In this document: piece by piece, positions 8,363-22,955 of the stretch
Layout: each line of letters begins with the position of its first letter
How positions within the stretch are numbered: position 1 is the first letter of the stretch
The notes under the pieces: model-generated
Database searches by the model: none
Told to the model about the DNA's origin: nothing
Seen by the model: only the letters and a program-made list of their open reading frames with translations
Position numbers and translations under genes: made by a program
NCBI GenBank assembly: GCA_947174565.1
Contig: CAMWJL010000017.1
Coordinates: forward strand, 1-34,036
Length of the DNA stretch: 34,036 nucleotides
Origin: an uncultured Prevotellaceae bacterium
GTDB taxonomy: Bacteria > Bacteroidota > Bacteroidia > Bacteroidales > Bacteroidaceae
Reading direction: 5' to 3'

Positions 8363-9430
8363 TTATTTGCCTGTCAACTTGCGAAACAGCTCTTTGTTAA
8401 GCAACGCAATGCGTTGGCTTCGGCTCAGGTTTTCCTGTATGAGCACCTCTGTCTTGCTGTACAAACTTCGTATGTTTTCAGCGATGAAACTCTGCACACG
8501 TTCCTCCACATCGGGGATGCCTTCCTCCTGCGGAGACAGGCACAACAACCCATTGGGTACAAGTTCCACCCGAATGGTCTTGCCCGTCTGCATGGGATCA
8601 CCGTCAAAATGAGCCACACCGTCGGAGGAACGATGGATGGTAAGGTTCTGACACTGGAAGGTCTTGATACGAGAGTTTTGGTCGAGAGTGCCGTTGAAGA
8701 GCTGAATGGCGATTTGAGGGGCTTCTATGGCAGTGAATGGCTCAAGAATGGTTACGTCCATGATGCCATCACGCACCGATGCGGAAGGAGCGATGTAGGC
8801 GTTGTTGCCATACTGCGAAGCATTGGCACACGAAATCAGGAAAGCTTTGCACGTCTCATGCACTTCTTTCCCATCACGCAGGTTCACCATCTCCACCTCG
8901 TAAGTCTCTGGATGATAGTTCAAACTGCTTTTCAAGACGTTTTCCAAATAGGCGACAGGACCTCGTTTGCCCGACTCCGCAAAACGCTGAGAGATGAAAG
9001 CGTCGAAACCAACACCACAGGTACAGAAGAACGGGCGACCGTTCACCACACCGTAATCCATCGTGTGTACCAATCCGCGATTGATAATCTTGATGGCACT
9101 GAGTGGGTCAGTCGGGATGCGCAGATGGCGTGCCAACCCGTTACCTGACCCTGAGGGGATGATAGCCAGTGCTGTCTGCGTGTGTACCAATCCGCCAGCC
9201 ACTTCGTTCACCGTACCATCGCCTCCGATGGCACATACAACATCCACTCCTTGCCGTGCAGCTTCTTTTGCCAATTCGGTGGCATGCCCCACCCGCCTTG
9301 TCTGTACAATCGTATAATCATTGTAGCGACTCTTGTCAAGATACTCTTCTATCAGCTTGATGACGAATCTCTTGCCCGAAGTGCCTGAAATAGGGTTAAC
9401 AATAAACTGTATCGTTTTCTTCTCTGCCAT
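8363..9430 (-). CDS. Diacylglycerol/sphingoid-type lipid kinase (YegS/DagK family)
   Basis: NPISGTSGKR..., GGDGTVNEVAGGL, PSGSGNGLARHLRIP motifs. Confidence 0.92.
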   Translation of the reverse strand: MAEKKTIQFIVNPISGTSGKRFVIKLIEEYLDKSRYNDYTIVQTRRVGHATELAKEAARQGVDVVCAIGGDGTVNEVAGGLVHTQTALAIIPSGSGNGLARHLRIPTDPLSAIKIINRGLVHTMDYGVVNGRPFFCTCGVGFDAFISQRFAESGKRGPVAYLENVLKSSLNYHPETYEVEMVNLRDGKEVHETCKAFLISCANASQYGNNAYIAPSASVRDGIMDVTILEPFTAIEAPQIAIQLFNGTLDQNSRIKTFQCQNLTIHRSSDGVAHFDGDPMQTGKTIRVELVPNGLLCLSPQEEGIPDVEERVQSFIAENIRSLYSKTEVLIQENLSRSQRIALLNKELFRKLTGK

Positions 9431-9537
9431 ATATTCAGAATATGCCTCATGCGACTTTCACGACCTTGCTGCATTATATATAATAATGTGTAACAATGAC
9501 GCACGCAGTAGCATTTTCCCTTTTCTTTTTATTACTG

Positions 9538-9545
9538 CAAAAGTA
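9538..9545 (-). promoter_or_regulatory. -7 box TACTTTTG upstream of lipid kinase
   Basis: minus strand TAnnTTTG about 108 bp upstream. Confidence 0.45.
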
Positions 9546-9641
9546 CGACTTTTTTTCATTTCCAAGCCTCAAAACACCCCATGTTTTTCATTGACATTTA
9601 TTTTTTTCAAAAAACGTAAGGAAGAAAAGTTCTTTTTTTAC

Positions 9642-14594: not shown

Positions 14595-15311
14595 ATGACA
14601 GAAAGTCAAAAAAAGTCAATCATAGAAAGTGGGAAACAGTATTTCCGTGAAATAATCATTCCCAATCATGTAAAAGGATTGGAGAAGTTGAAGTTGAAGG
14701 ACTTCAAAATAAACCCATTCTTGGTGAACTATTTGGCCGCATTCCTGTGTGGCAATACGAAGCCTGATTCTTTGGCAAAAGCATTGGTGTACCCTCGCAT
14801 TCTCGGCACAAGCATCAATACGAGCTTTGGTCAAAATATCCAGGTGTTCATTTCAAGTCTTGCACAGGTAACAGGCTCTGCATCCGGTATTGATGGCATA
14901 GACATTGAGTTTGTGGATGCCATTGATGGACGCAAAAAGTACTGCCAATGCAAAGCGGGGCCACAGACAATCAACAAGGATGACATTGCAACTGTTTTAG
15001 GACACTTCAAACACCTTCATAATAAGGCTCGTTTGGACAGGCTCAATGTACAAATTGACGACATGATTGTGGGTGTGCTGTATGGTGATGAAAGCGAACT
15101 GTCGGCTCATTATAAGATTATCAATTCCCACTATCCCGTGTATTGCGGTGCTGATTTTTGGGAACACCTGACAGGCGATGCTCAATTCTATCATCATTTG
15201 GCAAAAGCATTTGGCGAAGTGGTAGAAGAGGACAATATAGATGGAAGCCATCTGATTATGAGTAAGATTGCTGAAATTGCAAAAGAAATAGAAGAACGGG
15301 GAAGCCTATAA
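14595..15311 (+). CDS. Type II restriction endonuclease, PmeII-like
   Basis: Adjacent to C5-MTase; PD-(D/E)xK-like core GIDGIDIEFVD...KKYCQCKAGPQTINKDD. Confidence 0.8.
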   Translation: MTESQKKSIIESGKQYFREIIIPNHVKGLEKLKLKDFKINPFLVNYLAAFLCGNTKPDSLAKALVYPRILGTSINTSFGQNIQVFISSLAQVTGSASGIDGIDIEFVDAIDGRKKYCQCKAGPQTINKDDIATVLGHFKHLHNKARLDRLNVQIDDMIVGVLYGDESELSAHYKIINSHYPVYCGADFWEHLTGDAQFYHHLAKAFGEVVEEDNIDGSHLIMSKIAEIAKEIEERGSL

Positions 15312-15316
15312 TAGCG

Positions 15317-17062
15317 ATGCCAACATTTTTATCTGCAACAAATTTAGCTGACTTGACAGGAACTTCGCTTGCGACAGCACAAAAGTGGGGCGAAAGTGGC
15401 GTTTATCCTTACCATAGGAATGAGAACGGAAAGATGGGATTCTACATGGAGGACTTGTTAGATGTGAATCCTGTTCGTCAGATGCTTGAAACAAATTGGG
15501 ATGAGGAAGCGAATGTGGTTCCACTTCGCGATTTCACTGCGGTGGAGTTGTTTGCAGGTGCGGGTGGTTTGGCTTTAGGCATGCACATGGCTGGTTTCCG
15601 TCATGTGTTGCTGAATGAGATGGATGCGATGGCTTGCCGAACACTTCGGAAGAATCATCCCGAGTGGAATGTGCTGGAGGGAGACATCCATCAGGTAGAT
15701 TTCACACCACTTCGTGGACAGGTGGATTTCCTTTCGGGCGGTTTCCCATGTCAAGCATTCTCATACGCTGGAAAGAAAGGTGGGTTGAATGACACCCGAG
15801 GCACTCTTTTCTTTGAAATGGCACGTGCTATACGCGAGATTCAACCCAAGGTGTTCATGGGCGAAAATGTGAAAGGACTGCTTTCCCATGACGACGGACA
15901 GACACTAAAGGTCATTCGCAATGCCATAGCGGAACTGGGATATACGTTAGTAGAGCCTCGTGTACTAAAAGCCATCATGTATCAAGTTCCTCAAAAACGT
16001 GAACGACTCATTCTTATTGCCATTCGCAATGACATTGCGGAATATGTGCAGTTCCATTGGCCTAATCCATACAAACGAGTGATGACTTTAAGGGACGCAT
16101 TCTTTCAAGGTGACCTTTTTGACCACGATGTGCCAGTTTCTGACGGTCAAACCTACCCTGCAAAAAAGGCTCGCGTGATGGCAATGGTGCCTGAAGGAGG
16201 CGATTGGCGTGACCTTCCCGTAGAAAAACAGAAGGAATACATGGGCGGCAGTTTTTATTTGGGTGGTGGTAAGACAGGCATGGCCCGACGACTTTCCATG
16301 GATGAGCCTTCATTGACACTAACCTGTGCCCCTGCCCAAAAACAGACAGAGCGTTGCCACCCCACAGAAACCCGTCCATTGACCATACGTGAGTATGCAC
16401 GCATCCAAACATTCCCCGACGATTGGTCGTTTGAAGGAACGATGACTGACCAATACAAGCAGATAGGCAATGCCGTACCTGTCAATCTTGCGTATGCCAT
16501 TGGTCGTTCACTCATTCGCCTCTTCAACGATATTGATGCCGTGCATTCGGAAGAAGGCCACTTTGAAGAAGCCAACCGCATTGCACACGGGATGCTTCCG
16601 CCCGATTTGTTCCCCTTAGACCTTTCCACCGTCAAGATTAACCATCCTGAACAAATTATCTGTAATACCATTAGCCACAAGAAGTTGGTTGACAACAATG
16701 ATTTGGATGACAGCAAGAACGTCCTCGTAAGCTTGGTAACCAATGATAATCTTGACCCGTTTAATCAGCAGAGTGCCAAGATTTATTATACAGGAAAGAA
16801 ATTCCCATCCACGGTGAAACTCAACAAACTCTATTACTTCATGCCATATACCAAAGGGAAGGGAATCCGAGACCTCTATATCATAAAAGTGGCACGCGTC
16901 GGCACAAAACATGAAGTAAGACAAGAATGTGACGAGAATGATTTCCGTCTTGTATTTGAACTCAAATTCGTAAGGCAGTTGTTTGAGGATTACAAACCCA
17001 TCAAGTTGCAGATTTGGCGTACCTTTACCGACACAACCTTGCGAGCTATTTTAGTTCTGTAA
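15317..17062 (+). CDS. DNA (cytosine-5) methyltransferase with N-terminal HTH-like and C-terminal extra domain
   Basis: Motif I FTAVELFAGAGGLALG, IV GGFPCQAFS, VI MGENVKGL, VIII QVPQKRERLILI, IX RPLTIREYARIQTFPDDW, X YKQIGNAVPVNLA. Confidence 0.96.
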   Translation: MPTFLSATNLADLTGTSLATAQKWGESGVYPYHRNENGKMGFYMEDLLDVNPVRQMLETNWDEEANVVPLRDFTAVELFAGAGGLALGMHMAGFRHVLLNEMDAMACRTLRKNHPEWNVLEGDIHQVDFTPLRGQVDFLSGGFPCQAFSYAGKKGGLNDTRGTLFFEMARAIREIQPKVFMGENVKGLLSHDDGQTLKVIRNAIAELGYTLVEPRVLKAIMYQVPQKRERLILIAIRNDIAEYVQFHWPNPYKRVMTLRDAFFQGDLFDHDVPVSDGQTYPAKKARVMAMVPEGGDWRDLPVEKQKEYMGGSFYLGGGKTGMARRLSMDEPSLTLTCAPAQKQTERCHPTETRPLTIREYARIQTFPDDWSFEGTMTDQYKQIGNAVPVNLAYAIGRSLIRLFNDIDAVHSEEGHFEEANRIAHGMLPPDLFPLDLSTVKINHPEQIICNTISHKKLVDNNDLDDSKNVLVSLVTNDNLDPFNQQSAKIYYTGKKFPSTVKLNKLYYFMPYTKGKGIRDLYIIKVARVGTKHEVRQECDENDFRLVFELKFVRQLFEDYKPIKLQIWRTFTDTTLRAILVL

Positions 17063-19781: not shown

Positions 19782-20027
19782 TTATTTATAACAAATGCCA
19801 CAAGGTTTTCGCCCCTTTGACTGTGCCATACTCAAAGAGACTTCTTTAATCGTTGATTGGCAATTATTCAATCCTCGACACCCTCTTTTGCAGTGATAGC
19901 AATACGCACCATATCCCGTACAGATATAAACCGAGTTGTCACTATGTGCATTGCAGGATGCACATAGTGAGCAACTCAATAAATAGAATGCCAAGAGTGT
20001 TGTAGTGGCATGTGTCATTGTTGTCAT
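19782..20027 (-). CDS. Small exported Cys-rich protein, putative Zn-binding YHxxxxC...C...CxxC domain
   Basis: MTTMTHATTTLLAFYLLSCSLCASCNAHSDNSVYICTGYGAYCYHCKRGCRGLNNCQSTIKEVSLSMAQSKGRKPCGICYK; start overlaps upstream stop (ATGA), supporting coupling; start chosen at 20027 rather than 20117. Confidence 0.72.
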   Translation of the reverse strand: MTTMTHATTTLLAFYLLSCSLCASCNAHSDNSVYICTGYGAYCYHCKRGCRGLNNCQSTIKEVSLSMAQSKGRKPCGICYK

Positions 20028-20881
20028 TCCAAAAATTTGTCTATAACCATCTTGGTATTTGAAGGTACGTCCGTTTCTCCGACATAGTACTTCTGTACAC
20101 CCATGTTCTGTAACCAATCGTTAATGACTTGCTCCATTTTGTCTTGGTCGGTAAGTGAATCGGGATTAAGTTCCAGTATCAATACTTCTAAATTCTCAAG
20201 ACCTTTCCGTCGTGCAATTAAACTTGATTTGGGATTCTTGAGTGTCTGAGATAATATATAGCTGTAAGCATTGCCTTCTTGAATTTTGTTTTGGGCATGA
20301 TAAATGTACCCATCCGTAAGGATGACAAGCACATTTCTATATCCGTCTTTGATGCAATAATTGTCAACGGGCTTGTTAAAGAATCCCCATATATCACAAC
20401 CCTGCCATTTACTTGTTTTGATAGTATAATCATAAATTTGTTCCATCGCTCCATGAAAATCATCAACAAAAGTAGTCAGCATTTTTTTCTTTTCAGCAGG
20501 AGCAGCCGTATTCAAGTCTAACTCTAATTTCTCAGAAAGCAAGGCGATTCTTGAATCATCGGGGATTGGATAGACAAAGACCTTTATCTTGTCTTTACAT
20601 GGCAAAATCTTTTGTTTAACAGCCCTGCTCTTCACGTAATTAGCCAGATATTCAACAATGGCAATGTCTTTGTCTTTTTGTGAAAGAGCCTTGGAATTAT
20701 CTGTACTTGGGTTAATTCGGTCAGACAAGTCAAGATAGATTGACAAATTAAGAGGTTGTGGTTTGTTCACAACGACGGAATTACCGCCATTATCGTCCTT
20801 TTCTTTGTTGGAACAGGAATAATACACAGCAATTACTGCAATAATAACCACACTAAGAATTACGATTACTTTTGTTTTCAT
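20024..20881 (-). CDS. VWA-like domain lipoprotein/membrane-anchored protein
   Basis: N-terminal TM/lipobox (YYSCSNKEK); LSIYLDLSDRIN and NVLVILTDGYIYH resemble VWA MIDAS segments. Confidence 0.75.
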   Translation of the reverse strand: MKTKVIVILSVVIIAVIAVYYSCSNKEKDDNGGNSVVVNKPQPLNLSIYLDLSDRINPSTDNSKALSQKDKDIAIVEYLANYVKSRAVKQKILPCKDKIKVFVYPIPDDSRIALLSEKLELDLNTAAPAEKKKMLTTFVDDFHGAMEQIYDYTIKTSKWQGCDIWGFFNKPVDNYCIKDGYRNVLVILTDGYIYHAQNKIQEGNAYSYILSQTLKNPKSSLIARRKGLENLEVLILELNPDSLTDQDKMEQVINDWLQNMGVQKYYVGETDVPSNTKMVIDKFLE

Positions 20882-20894
20882 TTTATACTCTTTT

Positions 20895-22133
20895 TTAGAT
20901 TGTTATCAATGTATTAAGCGTTTTATTAAATTCGTTGGTGATGTCGTTCTTCTCATCATCTGTTTTCTGCATTGCTGCCATATATCCCTGCCAACCAGCA
21001 AGGAAGTTGTTAAGCTCCATTTTTATTTTGTTGATATCATATCGTGCAATGGTTCCATTCAGTTGGTTTTCCACTTTTGAAATTTCTGCACAAATAGAAG
21101 CGATATTAGCAGTGTTTCCTGCTTGCGCCTCTCTCGTTTCATCCATCCTCCGTTTTATACTTTCGATTTCTTTACATAGTTGTTCGTGGCGTATTGTGTT
21201 CAAATCCAATTGACTAAGAGATCTTACAAAATATCCGAAAGTGAATCCCCATATCAAGTATGCCACAAATCCAAGGCAAATAATAACCCAAAAGTTTGGG
21301 TCATTAGAGGCAAGACTGAATGAATAAGGCGGCAGTGCTGCTAATGACATCAGACGGTCAAGATTATAAATCTTTTCGCAGATAGCATAAGATAAGAGTG
21401 TGTCGAAAATAAAAGCGACTACAATGATAAGAGGAATTTTGATATATTTAAGCCATCCCGTTTCCCCCTCCCAGCGATTCAGTACAAAACCGAATGCAAG
21501 GAAGATGATGGGCATGAGTAAGATGAAAAGTAAAGTTGTCGCCCCTTCTGAGGCAGCGGCAGAAAGTGCCTGCGAATCAAAGATGGCTTCGGATAATTGA
21601 AAATCGCCTTCTGAACCTAAACTAAATTGTTTGAAAAAGGCAGAATAAGCAACAGAACTATAGAATATAAAGAAATACAGGGTGAAAGGGATTAGAATAA
21701 CACCTGAAATAATCAATGTTATCCATGCACTTCTATTGCGTCTTGCTGTATTTCCATCCAACTCAAAAAGTTCTCGTTGTTTTTCTTGTAATTCCTTATC
21801 TAAGGAATTCAATCTTTCCGTATTCTGTTCAAGTTTGTTCGATTCAATTTCTTTATCTCTCTCAAAAGTAATCTTTTTGTTTTGCAAACTCAATCTAAGT
21901 TCGTTTTGTAAACTCTCATCATCTTCTTGTTCTTTCTTCAATCCCGAATAAACAGCTTGAAGATGGGGGGTGAATGCTTGTAATACACCTTGGGAGATAC
22001 CAGCCATACGGAAACCATATTGCTTATACGTTTCTTGCGATTTACGACTTTCACTTGGAGTGGTATCATCACTTGTCATAGGAATGGCATCGCTCTTCAA
22101 CGAGAAAATCTTTTTTATATTTGTGAAATCCAT
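20895..22133 (-). CDS. Uncharacterised membrane protein, about 4 TM helices flanked by coiled coils
   Basis: Four hydrophobic segments; KLEQNTERLNSLDKELQEKQRELFEL and C-terminal coiled-coil stretches. Confidence 0.75.
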   Translation of the reverse strand: MDFTNIKKIFSLKSDAIPMTSDDTTPSESRKSQETYKQYGFRMAGISQGVLQAFTPHLQAVYSGLKKEQEDDESLQNELRLSLQNKKITFERDKEIESNKLEQNTERLNSLDKELQEKQRELFELDGNTARRNRSAWITLIISGVILIPFTLYFFIFYSSVAYSAFFKQFSLGSEGDFQLSEAIFDSQALSAAASEGATTLLFILLMPIIFLAFGFVLNRWEGETGWLKYIKIPLIIVVAFIFDTLLSYAICEKIYNLDRLMSLAALPPYSFSLASNDPNFWVIICLGFVAYLIWGFTFGYFVRSLSQLDLNTIRHEQLCKEIESIKRRMDETREAQAGNTANIASICAEISKVENQLNGTIARYDINKIKMELNNFLAGWQGYMAAMQKTDDEKNDITNEFNKTLNTLITI

Positions 22134-22141
22134 ACTTATCT

Positions 22142-22564
22142 TTAAAATTTTATTTCATTGACAATCTGTTCAATAGTTTTTCCTTCTTTAACGCTTGTTA
22201 GAAAGTACTCCATAATACTTTCCACATTTTCTTCATGAAAACCAAATAGAATAATATACTTGCAAAGCAATGCTTTTTCAGAATCCTCTATGACACCATC
22301 TGACCATGCCATTCGGGTCAAATCATAGAGGTAATGAATCTTGTCTTCCAAGGTCTCTGGCAAGACGGGATTTAGACCTGATGTTACAACAATATTGTTG
22401 ATGACATCTTCCGTTATACCATGCTCCAATCCAATCTTGTACAATAGTTCTTTCTCATGAGGATGAAACTCTGCATCCGAAAGGGCTAAGCAATAAAGAT
22501 TGAAGAAATGCCATTTTTTACTTTCTTCAATACGGCTGTTCGTTTTGTCCAATTCTTTCTCCAT
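22142..22564 (-). CDS. TerB-like (tellurite-resistance TerB family) protein
   Basis: SKKWHFFNLYCLALSDAEFHPHEKELLYKIGLEHGI...LTRMAWSDGVIEDSEKALLCKYIILFGF; paired D/E-rich helical repeats; start at 22564 (MEKELDK). Confidence 0.78.
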   Translation of the reverse strand: MEKELDKTNSRIEESKKWHFFNLYCLALSDAEFHPHEKELLYKIGLEHGITEDVINNIVVTSGLNPVLPETLEDKIHYLYDLTRMAWSDGVIEDSEKALLCKYIILFGFHEENVESIMEYFLTSVKEGKTIEQIVNEIKF

Positions 22565-22571
22565 GGGCTTT

Positions 22572-22599
22572 TTTCTTTTTGTGACACTGCAAAAAGAAA
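22572..22599 (-). promoter_or_regulatory. Hairpin 7 nt upstream of the TerB start codon
   Basis: TTTCTTTTTG-N8-CAAAAAGAAA perfect 10-bp stem. Confidence 0.8.
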
Positions 22600-22740
22600 G
22601 GTGTGTGACTTTCCGATTGCCAATTCCAGGTATCGCCAAACACCTATGCCCATACAACCATGAAGCCCACACCTAACGGTGTAAGCATTCACTTTTATTG
22701 TTGATGAGCAATCTTCTTTTGGCGATTTCGGAATTGCATC
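22600..22740 (-). ncRNA. Candidate structured RNA leader of TerB operon
   Basis: GGTGTGGGCTTC (22662-22673 minus) vs GAAAGTCACACACC (22600-22613 minus), nested GGTTG/CAATC and AGGT/ACCT; alternative ACACC-GTTA-GGTGT hairpin; long-range GCAATTCC..TCGCCAAA / TTTGGCGA..GGAATTG. Confidence 0.5.
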
Positions 22741-22880
22741 AAGTAAAAGCAAACACTTTCTTTTCCTTATGTCAAGTTAAACAATTATGTCATATATATC
22801 TTTTTTTAGTTTATTATGTTTATGTCATTAGAACAATCCCGAATGAATACCTTTGATTCATGTTGATTGTCTTCGGTTTG

Positions 22881-22888
22881 CAAATATA
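22881..22888 (-). promoter_or_regulatory. -7 box TATATTTG upstream of TerB operon
   Basis: minus strand TAnnTTTG about 317 bp upstream of start. Confidence 0.5.
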
Positions 22889-22955
22889 CGATTAACTTTT
22901 CACTTCCAAACTTTCTTTAAGAGAAAAATGTATCTAAACACAGAAAGCACAAAAC

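Follow-up and report, generated by a model that had tools for sequence, protein, structure and literature searches.

The stretch analysed here (the window) comprises 34,036 nucleotides from an uncultured Prevotellaceae bacterium (GenBank assembly GCA_947174565.1, contig CAMWJL010000017.1, positions 1 to 34,036 of the forward strand). It carries a minus-strand operon of four genes, designated P1 to P4, which is preceded by a structured leader RNA and encodes a TerB-family protein, two membrane-associated proteins and a small Cys-rich protein. We describe the operon, the distribution of its relatives in Bacteroidota and the function that these data suggest.

The operon and its products

The following features were located (coordinates in the window, strand, description, evidence):

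22142..22564, minus: P1, TerB-family cytosolic protein of 140 amino acids (aa) (Pfam TerB and homologues)
20895..22133, minus: P2, membrane protein of 412 aa, no named family (transmembrane (TM) scan, model, family alignment)
20024..20881, minus: P3, membrane- or lipid-anchored protein of 285 aa, predicted periplasmic, with VWA-like motifs (motif conservation)
19782..20027, minus: P4, Cys-rich protein of 81 aa, predicted to be exported, YHxxxxCRGLxxC...CxxC (sequence pattern)
21402..21404, minus: Asp244 codon of P2, inside TM3 (alignment of 34 sequences)
22572..22773, minus: leader RNA, a long imperfect hairpin whose 3' end is separated by 7 nt from the start codon of TerB (conservation, fold, covariation)
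22881..22910, minus: promoter-like site of Bacteroides type (TTTG at 22910-22907, 18 nt, TATATTTG at 22888-22881)

The gene arrangement is that given by the first-pass annotation, which was made from the sequence alone: P1 and P2 are separated by 8 nt, P2 and P3 by 13 nt, and P3 and P4 share a 4-nt ATGA overlap. That annotation ended the feature at the TerB start codon and overlooked the leader RNA directly upstream. The promoter-like site is a prediction, matched to the consensus by eye; its TATATTTG element is also retained in L005, one of the related loci (L numbers) used for comparison. The G+C content of the operon is 37% versus 44–54% in its flanks, and 37% versus 57% in L006. Because these values are below those of the surroundings, the operon looks horizontally transferred.

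P1 of the window scored 23.9 bits against Pfam TerB (PF05099), 0.5 below the cut-off of 24.4; the same profile was matched by 18 of 19 P1 homologues, with a best E-value of 1e-9. A search of the PDB with the P1 family profile retrieved 2ou3 (COG3793) and 2h5n, and residues D30, E37, D89 and E96 form an invariant acidic motif of the family. The only PADLOC match of P1 was a weak one to PDC-S48. Judged by the homologues and the PDB matches, the TerB assignment holds up at the family level.

The TM scan of P2 detected hydrophobic helices at residues 138-156, 200-218, 233-251 and 281-299, and the structural model, of moderate confidence, has long helices ahead of TM1 and behind TM4. Scan and model thus agree with the previously proposed architecture of four TM helices with coiled coils on both sides. 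Both coiled coils are predicted to be cytosolic because the TM flanks are positively charged. Asp244 within TM3 is invariant in all 34 aligned sequences, as are G40, Y153, F157, G288 and G380; since the acid is fully conserved and buried, it suggests that P2 may mediate ion or proton movement. The protein had no match above the curated cut-offs in Pfam, NCBIfam or PADLOC, and a comparison with the PDB, based on a shallow alignment of proteins from the window and related loci, gave generic coiled-coil matches only. A stator identity of the MotA, ExbB or Zorya type was considered and dropped, as the loop between TM2 and TM3 is short.

P3 begins with a single TM or lipobox-type segment, and its motifs DLSDR...GxD...TDG are kept in 30 homologues. 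The motifs fit a VWA-like site in which Arg would replace the second Ser (DxSxR instead of DxSxS). No Pfam VWA model matched P3 of the window, Copine was weakly matched by 2 of the 30 homologues, and hhalign comparisons with VWA proteins of the BatA, BatB and DUF58 types were not significant. An AlphaFold model built from three sequences reached a predicted local distance difference test (pLDDT) value of 37. Of the earlier description of P3 as a membrane-anchored VWA-like protein, the anchor and the motifs were recovered, whereas the fold was supported by neither the profiles nor the model. P4 carries an export signal and a Cys/His pattern that includes the YHxxxxC...C...CxxC arrangement already noted for it; the protein weakly matches phrog_27962, and its profile retrieved only antibody noise from the PDB.

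The P2–P3 pair and its genomic contexts

We collected 41 loci from Bacteroidota, each with a relative of P2 or P3. The two genes were adjacent in constant order, or fused, in 40 of them, and the remaining locus ended at a contig edge. On the Runella plasmid pSP2_2, the pair forms a single protein of 704 aa. P2 was found in 14 of 394 genomes at the level of the order and in 18 of 299 sampled genomes at that of the phylum, and P3 in 15 of 395 genomes of the class; phyla other than Bacteroidota were covered by phage, plasmid and viral scans and by one genome-contig scan. TerB was located directly 5' of the pair in 25 loci. On the maximum-likelihood tree of P3, the TerB-linked rows corresponded to one change against a mean of 7.2 after shuffling, with modest branch support (76/52). 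The conserved core is P2–P3, not TerB, and the single change in the tree suggests that TerB was probably a later addition to the pair, made once. The survey also covered the co-occurrence of all four genes, on which the first-pass annotation had made its proposal depend: TerB, P2 and P3 were found jointly in loci across Bacteroidota, with P4 repeatedly at their side, and the proposal thus passed this check.

The genes could, in principle, be co-transcribed neighbours with no joint function, as P4 is absent from most loci and TerB from more than a third. However, the repeated co-occurrence over many genera, the fusion of P2 with P3 and the tight spacing make such an explanation scarcely credible, and for P2–P3 and TerB it is largely refuted.

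Two further families were linked to the pair. The P4 profile gave 13 strong matches in 43 genomes, and 11 of these lie between 9 bp and 2.6 kb from P2–P3; nine of the 11 are seeds of the profile, and the independent part of the result is therefore two of four (G513 and G1018). For DUF4236, whose Pfam model was built independently of the P2–P3 loci, nine of 12 matches (39 genomes) adjoin the pair, and one match only was found in a genome lacking it. Excalibur, DUF6804, Endonuclease_NS, HNH, HSDR_N, SNase and Exo_endo_phos proteins were further neighbours. Small membrane proteins of the DUF6804 type occur directly beside the operon in L052, L053, L055, L064 (5' of TerB) and L059 (at 10007), the Pfam match having been checked for L052; the protein is a possible further subunit. 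A PLD-like domain is present at the start of P2 in three diverged loci (L051, L087 and L088). At positions 7638-8857 of L087, a few kb from the PLD-fused P2–P3, two proteins are TerD-like by eye, and a classical Ter gene may thus neighbour the module there.

The presence of Endonuclease_NS, SNase, Exo_endo_phos and HNH proteins beside the pair in several loci, together with, in L056, a DprA-like gene two positions upstream, would also fit a module by which extracellular or incoming DNA is taken up, scavenged or cleared, with P2–P3 as its gate and with P4 and the exported nucleases acting on the DNA. Since the window operon has no nuclease gene, the neighbours differ between loci and no competence genes are consistently linked, we regard this function as distinctly improbable.

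In several diverged branches, the pair was also found in or beside type III CRISPR loci. In L067, it occurs with Csm6/NE0113, a Card1-like protein, RT-Cas1, Cas2 and Cas6, with Cas10/Csm1 and Csm3 in L115; in L069, it lies in a type III-B locus with CPP-B. Cas1, CPP-B, Cas2 and a 47-repeat array are near the pair in L085, and L051 has a 23-repeat array together with Cas1, a Cas10-like and a Csx20-like gene, all within ~26 kb. Placement in type III loci is thus a feature of these four diverged relatives. A Csx20-family gene adjoins P2–P3 in L066 (E 5e-25) and in L056, where it is below the curated cut-off and 44% identical to the one of the Runella locus. CRISPR-linked rows corresponded to three changes on the P3 tree. 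No CARF or SAVED match was detected in P2 or P3 by the Pfam and NCBIfam scans. The proteins encoded directly 3' of P3 in L067 (5108-6001) and L066 (5526-6179), which have no NCBIfam match, are possible further partners. In a close relative of the window organism (G002, contig C10), the operon and a Csx20-like gene beside Cas1 lie ~53 kb apart (~99 kb and ~152 kb).

Csx20 is a confirmed ring nuclease for cyclic tetra-adenylate (cA4), and 31 ring-nuclease loci were reported to have no known effector (PMC12409355). Cam1 and Csx23 are described as type III CRISPR membrane effectors (PMC10808066, PMC11014256); P2 relatives likewise occur beside type III genes, and P2–P3 adjoins Csx20 in two loci, but P2 and P3 have no recognised CARF or SAVED domain and the TerB clade has no CRISPR link. 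The association with CRISPR is not wholly new, because Altae-Tran et al. (2023; PMC10910872) had recorded in bulk that vWA-related genes and transmembrane genes occur close to CRISPR loci. By their description these genes resemble P2–P3 and may correspond to it; the passages found mention neither TerB nor an RNA leader.

The leader RNA

An element of ~200 nt between the promoter-like site and the TerB start is shared with L004, L005 and L006 at 71–89% identity. Its folding is more stable than that of shuffled sequences, with z of -4.5 in the window and -7.06 and -4.8 in further leader sequences. In a sequence-only MAFFT alignment of four rows, double compensatory changes were observed in 13 of 67 pairs, a value reached by 0 of 500 shuffles, and sliding the partners abolished the signal. 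The covariance model built on these rows detected only three new places in 730 kb (L041, L042 and L044), all of them heads of TerB operons and in sense orientation; in the L042 leader, a section of one helix is swapped end for end. With L040, which was detected by a second model, the leader was found at the heads of eight Bacteroidales TerB operons in total. In L041, a 365-aa lipoprotein-like gene (8498-9595) lies between the leader and TerB, and the operon head can therefore accept additional genes. The model had no match in the loci from Flavobacteria or in the CRISPR-linked loci. A simple repeat or miniature inverted-repeat transposable element was rejected as an identity for the leader, which has a single copy in the window and, among P2–P3 loci, occurs only at operon heads.

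Viral contigs were scanned with a 16-nt core of the leader. The 16-mer was present in 39 contigs and the full fold in 19, some of which are near-copies; the 16-mer alone is thus insufficient for a match. The contigs with the RNA are as follows:

L144, L150, L149, L140, L139, L135, L127, L159, L133, L137
L136, L154, L128, L148, L156, L157, L153, L141, L155

The RNA mostly lies tens of bp 5' of a gene in the same orientation, often a small cargo gene. In L149, the gene that it precedes encodes an HSDR_N-like nuclease and follows prophage lysis genes; in L140, it precedes a small gene with a DUF262-like gene behind it. Other genes 3' of the RNA encode small membrane proteins and lipoproteins (all names by eye). 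In a 23-row alignment, covariation was observed in 45 of 48 pairs, the alignment being fitted to the structure and row L052 (E 0.48) being probably a chance match. The best match of the leader in Rfam 15 was IR_84 (E 0.86, 22.5 bits versus a gathering threshold of 51), and the RNAs of five viral contigs likewise matched no Rfam model; the lists outside Rfam (PMC8040213) were not compared. The leader and the RNAs of the viral contigs may constitute a wide leader-RNA family, and on the viral contigs the RNA may be a mobile element.

The RNA could instead be independent of the operon, being either the gene of a small RNA or a mobile element that encodes RNA and integrates beside cargo genes. Such independence would account for the identical fold ahead of unrelated viral-contig genes and for L006, where the RNA ends ~150 nt from TerB. 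However, among P2–P3 loci the RNA occurs only at operon heads and on the sense strand, and its last hairpin in the window reaches the start codon; we consider independence quite unlikely.

A probable restriction-modification pair is encoded elsewhere in the window, on the plus strand at 14595-17062, 2.7 kb past the 3' end of the operon. One of its genes encodes 238 aa and the other a cytosine-5 methyltransferase of 581 aa (motifs FPCQAFS and ENVKG by eye), and its G+C content of 45% is below that of the left flank.

Function of the operon

The reading that we favour, with a confidence somewhat short of even, is that of an anti-invader envelope cassette which spreads horizontally among Bacteroidota and is controlled by an RNA leader. 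We propose a defence role because the P2–P3 pair is kept in 40 of 41 loci, stands in type III CRISPR contexts in diverged branches and is accompanied by the PLD fusion and by nucleases. The linkage to DUF4236 and P4, the invariant intramembrane Asp, and the patchy spread with the low G+C content argue in the same direction, as do the occurrence of TerB in proven anti-phage systems (PMC10250203, PMC10952713) and that of the RNA before viral-contig genes, one of them HSDR_N-like.

Several results weigh against this interpretation. PADLOC had no match to P2, P3 or P4, and the VWA fold and the ion flux are only putative. Relatives of the pair were found on one plasmid, in no phage (P2 scan) and on no viral contig (P2 and P3 scans). 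The window genome has no Cas1, so that the operon does not belong to a type III locus there, and the TerB clade as a whole, the window included, has no CRISPR link. The nuclease neighbours, taken as raw observations, are suggestive.

The anti-phage systems Shango and Bunzi are likewise compact operons that include a TerB-domain protein (PMC10250203, PMC10952713). Shango, however, has its own ATPase and helicase, neither of which is present in the window operon; as PADLOC holds no model that matches P2, P3 or P4, the operon was assigned to neither system, the Bunzi partner not having been compared directly. Ter stress systems, in which TerB occurs with TerC, TerD and TerY-P, similarly have a VWA-like protein encoded in the same operon as TerB. 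They differ in that the window operon lacks TerC, TerD, kinase, phosphatase and MoxR genes and its VWA-like protein is predicted to be periplasmic rather than TerY-like. In agreement with the first-pass annotation, which had described the operon as lacking TerC, TerD and TerY-kinase components, none of these and no phosphatase was found in the operon (Pfam, NCBIfam); by eye, none was seen among the listed open reading frames of the window.

The operon might nevertheless be a Ter-type module for metal or envelope stress, in which TerB and the metal-ion-like motifs of P3 sense metal or damage to the envelope, the membrane is stabilised and the CRISPR links are secondary. The conserved acidic residues of TerB and the D-x-S and TDG motifs of P3 are consistent with this function, and the Cys/His pattern of P4 could bind metal. 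However, TerB is missing from at least 13 loci of the family, the operon has no TerC, TerD or TerY, and the CRISPR and nuclease contexts would be left unexplained; we therefore consider a stress module unlikely. The same data modify the first-pass description of an envelope-spanning sensing or defence module related to Ter systems: the CRISPR and nuclease contexts fit its defence part, whereas the Ter relationship is misleading, since P2–P3 is the core, TerB was probably a later single gain and branches without TerB stand at type III CRISPR loci.

If the anti-invader reading is correct, P2 would form oligomers in the inner membrane, its coiled coils facing the cytosol, and P3 would cap it on the periplasmic side. 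TerB would dock on the cytosolic part of P2 as the signal input of the TerB clade, while other branches appear to be linked to type III CRISPR signalling instead. Upon activation, the polar TM core near Asp244 might open or couple ion flux, and the exported partners (P4, nucleases and Excalibur proteins) would work in the envelope, with the result that growth would stop or incoming DNA would be destroyed. As a cis-acting switch resembling an attenuator, the leader RNA would hold down expression of the cassette in the absence of a signal, and the same may apply to the cargo of the viral contigs.

A stronger, joint proposal, that P2–P3 is an undescribed effector pair of some type III CRISPR loci and of stand-alone TerB operons and that the non-Rfam RNA is a mobile leader switch for defence-type and viral-contig cargo in Bacteroidota, appears possible yet doubtful. 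If true, P2–P3 would be a candidate effector for type III loci that have a ring nuclease and no known effector. The more unexpected part is the RNA, a single fold that shows compensatory changes at nearly all of its pairs and stands ahead of unrelated viral and host cargo. Should the proposal hold, it would become possible to test directly how accessory and defence genes are regulated in gut phages, and the RNA would serve as a search handle for such genes.
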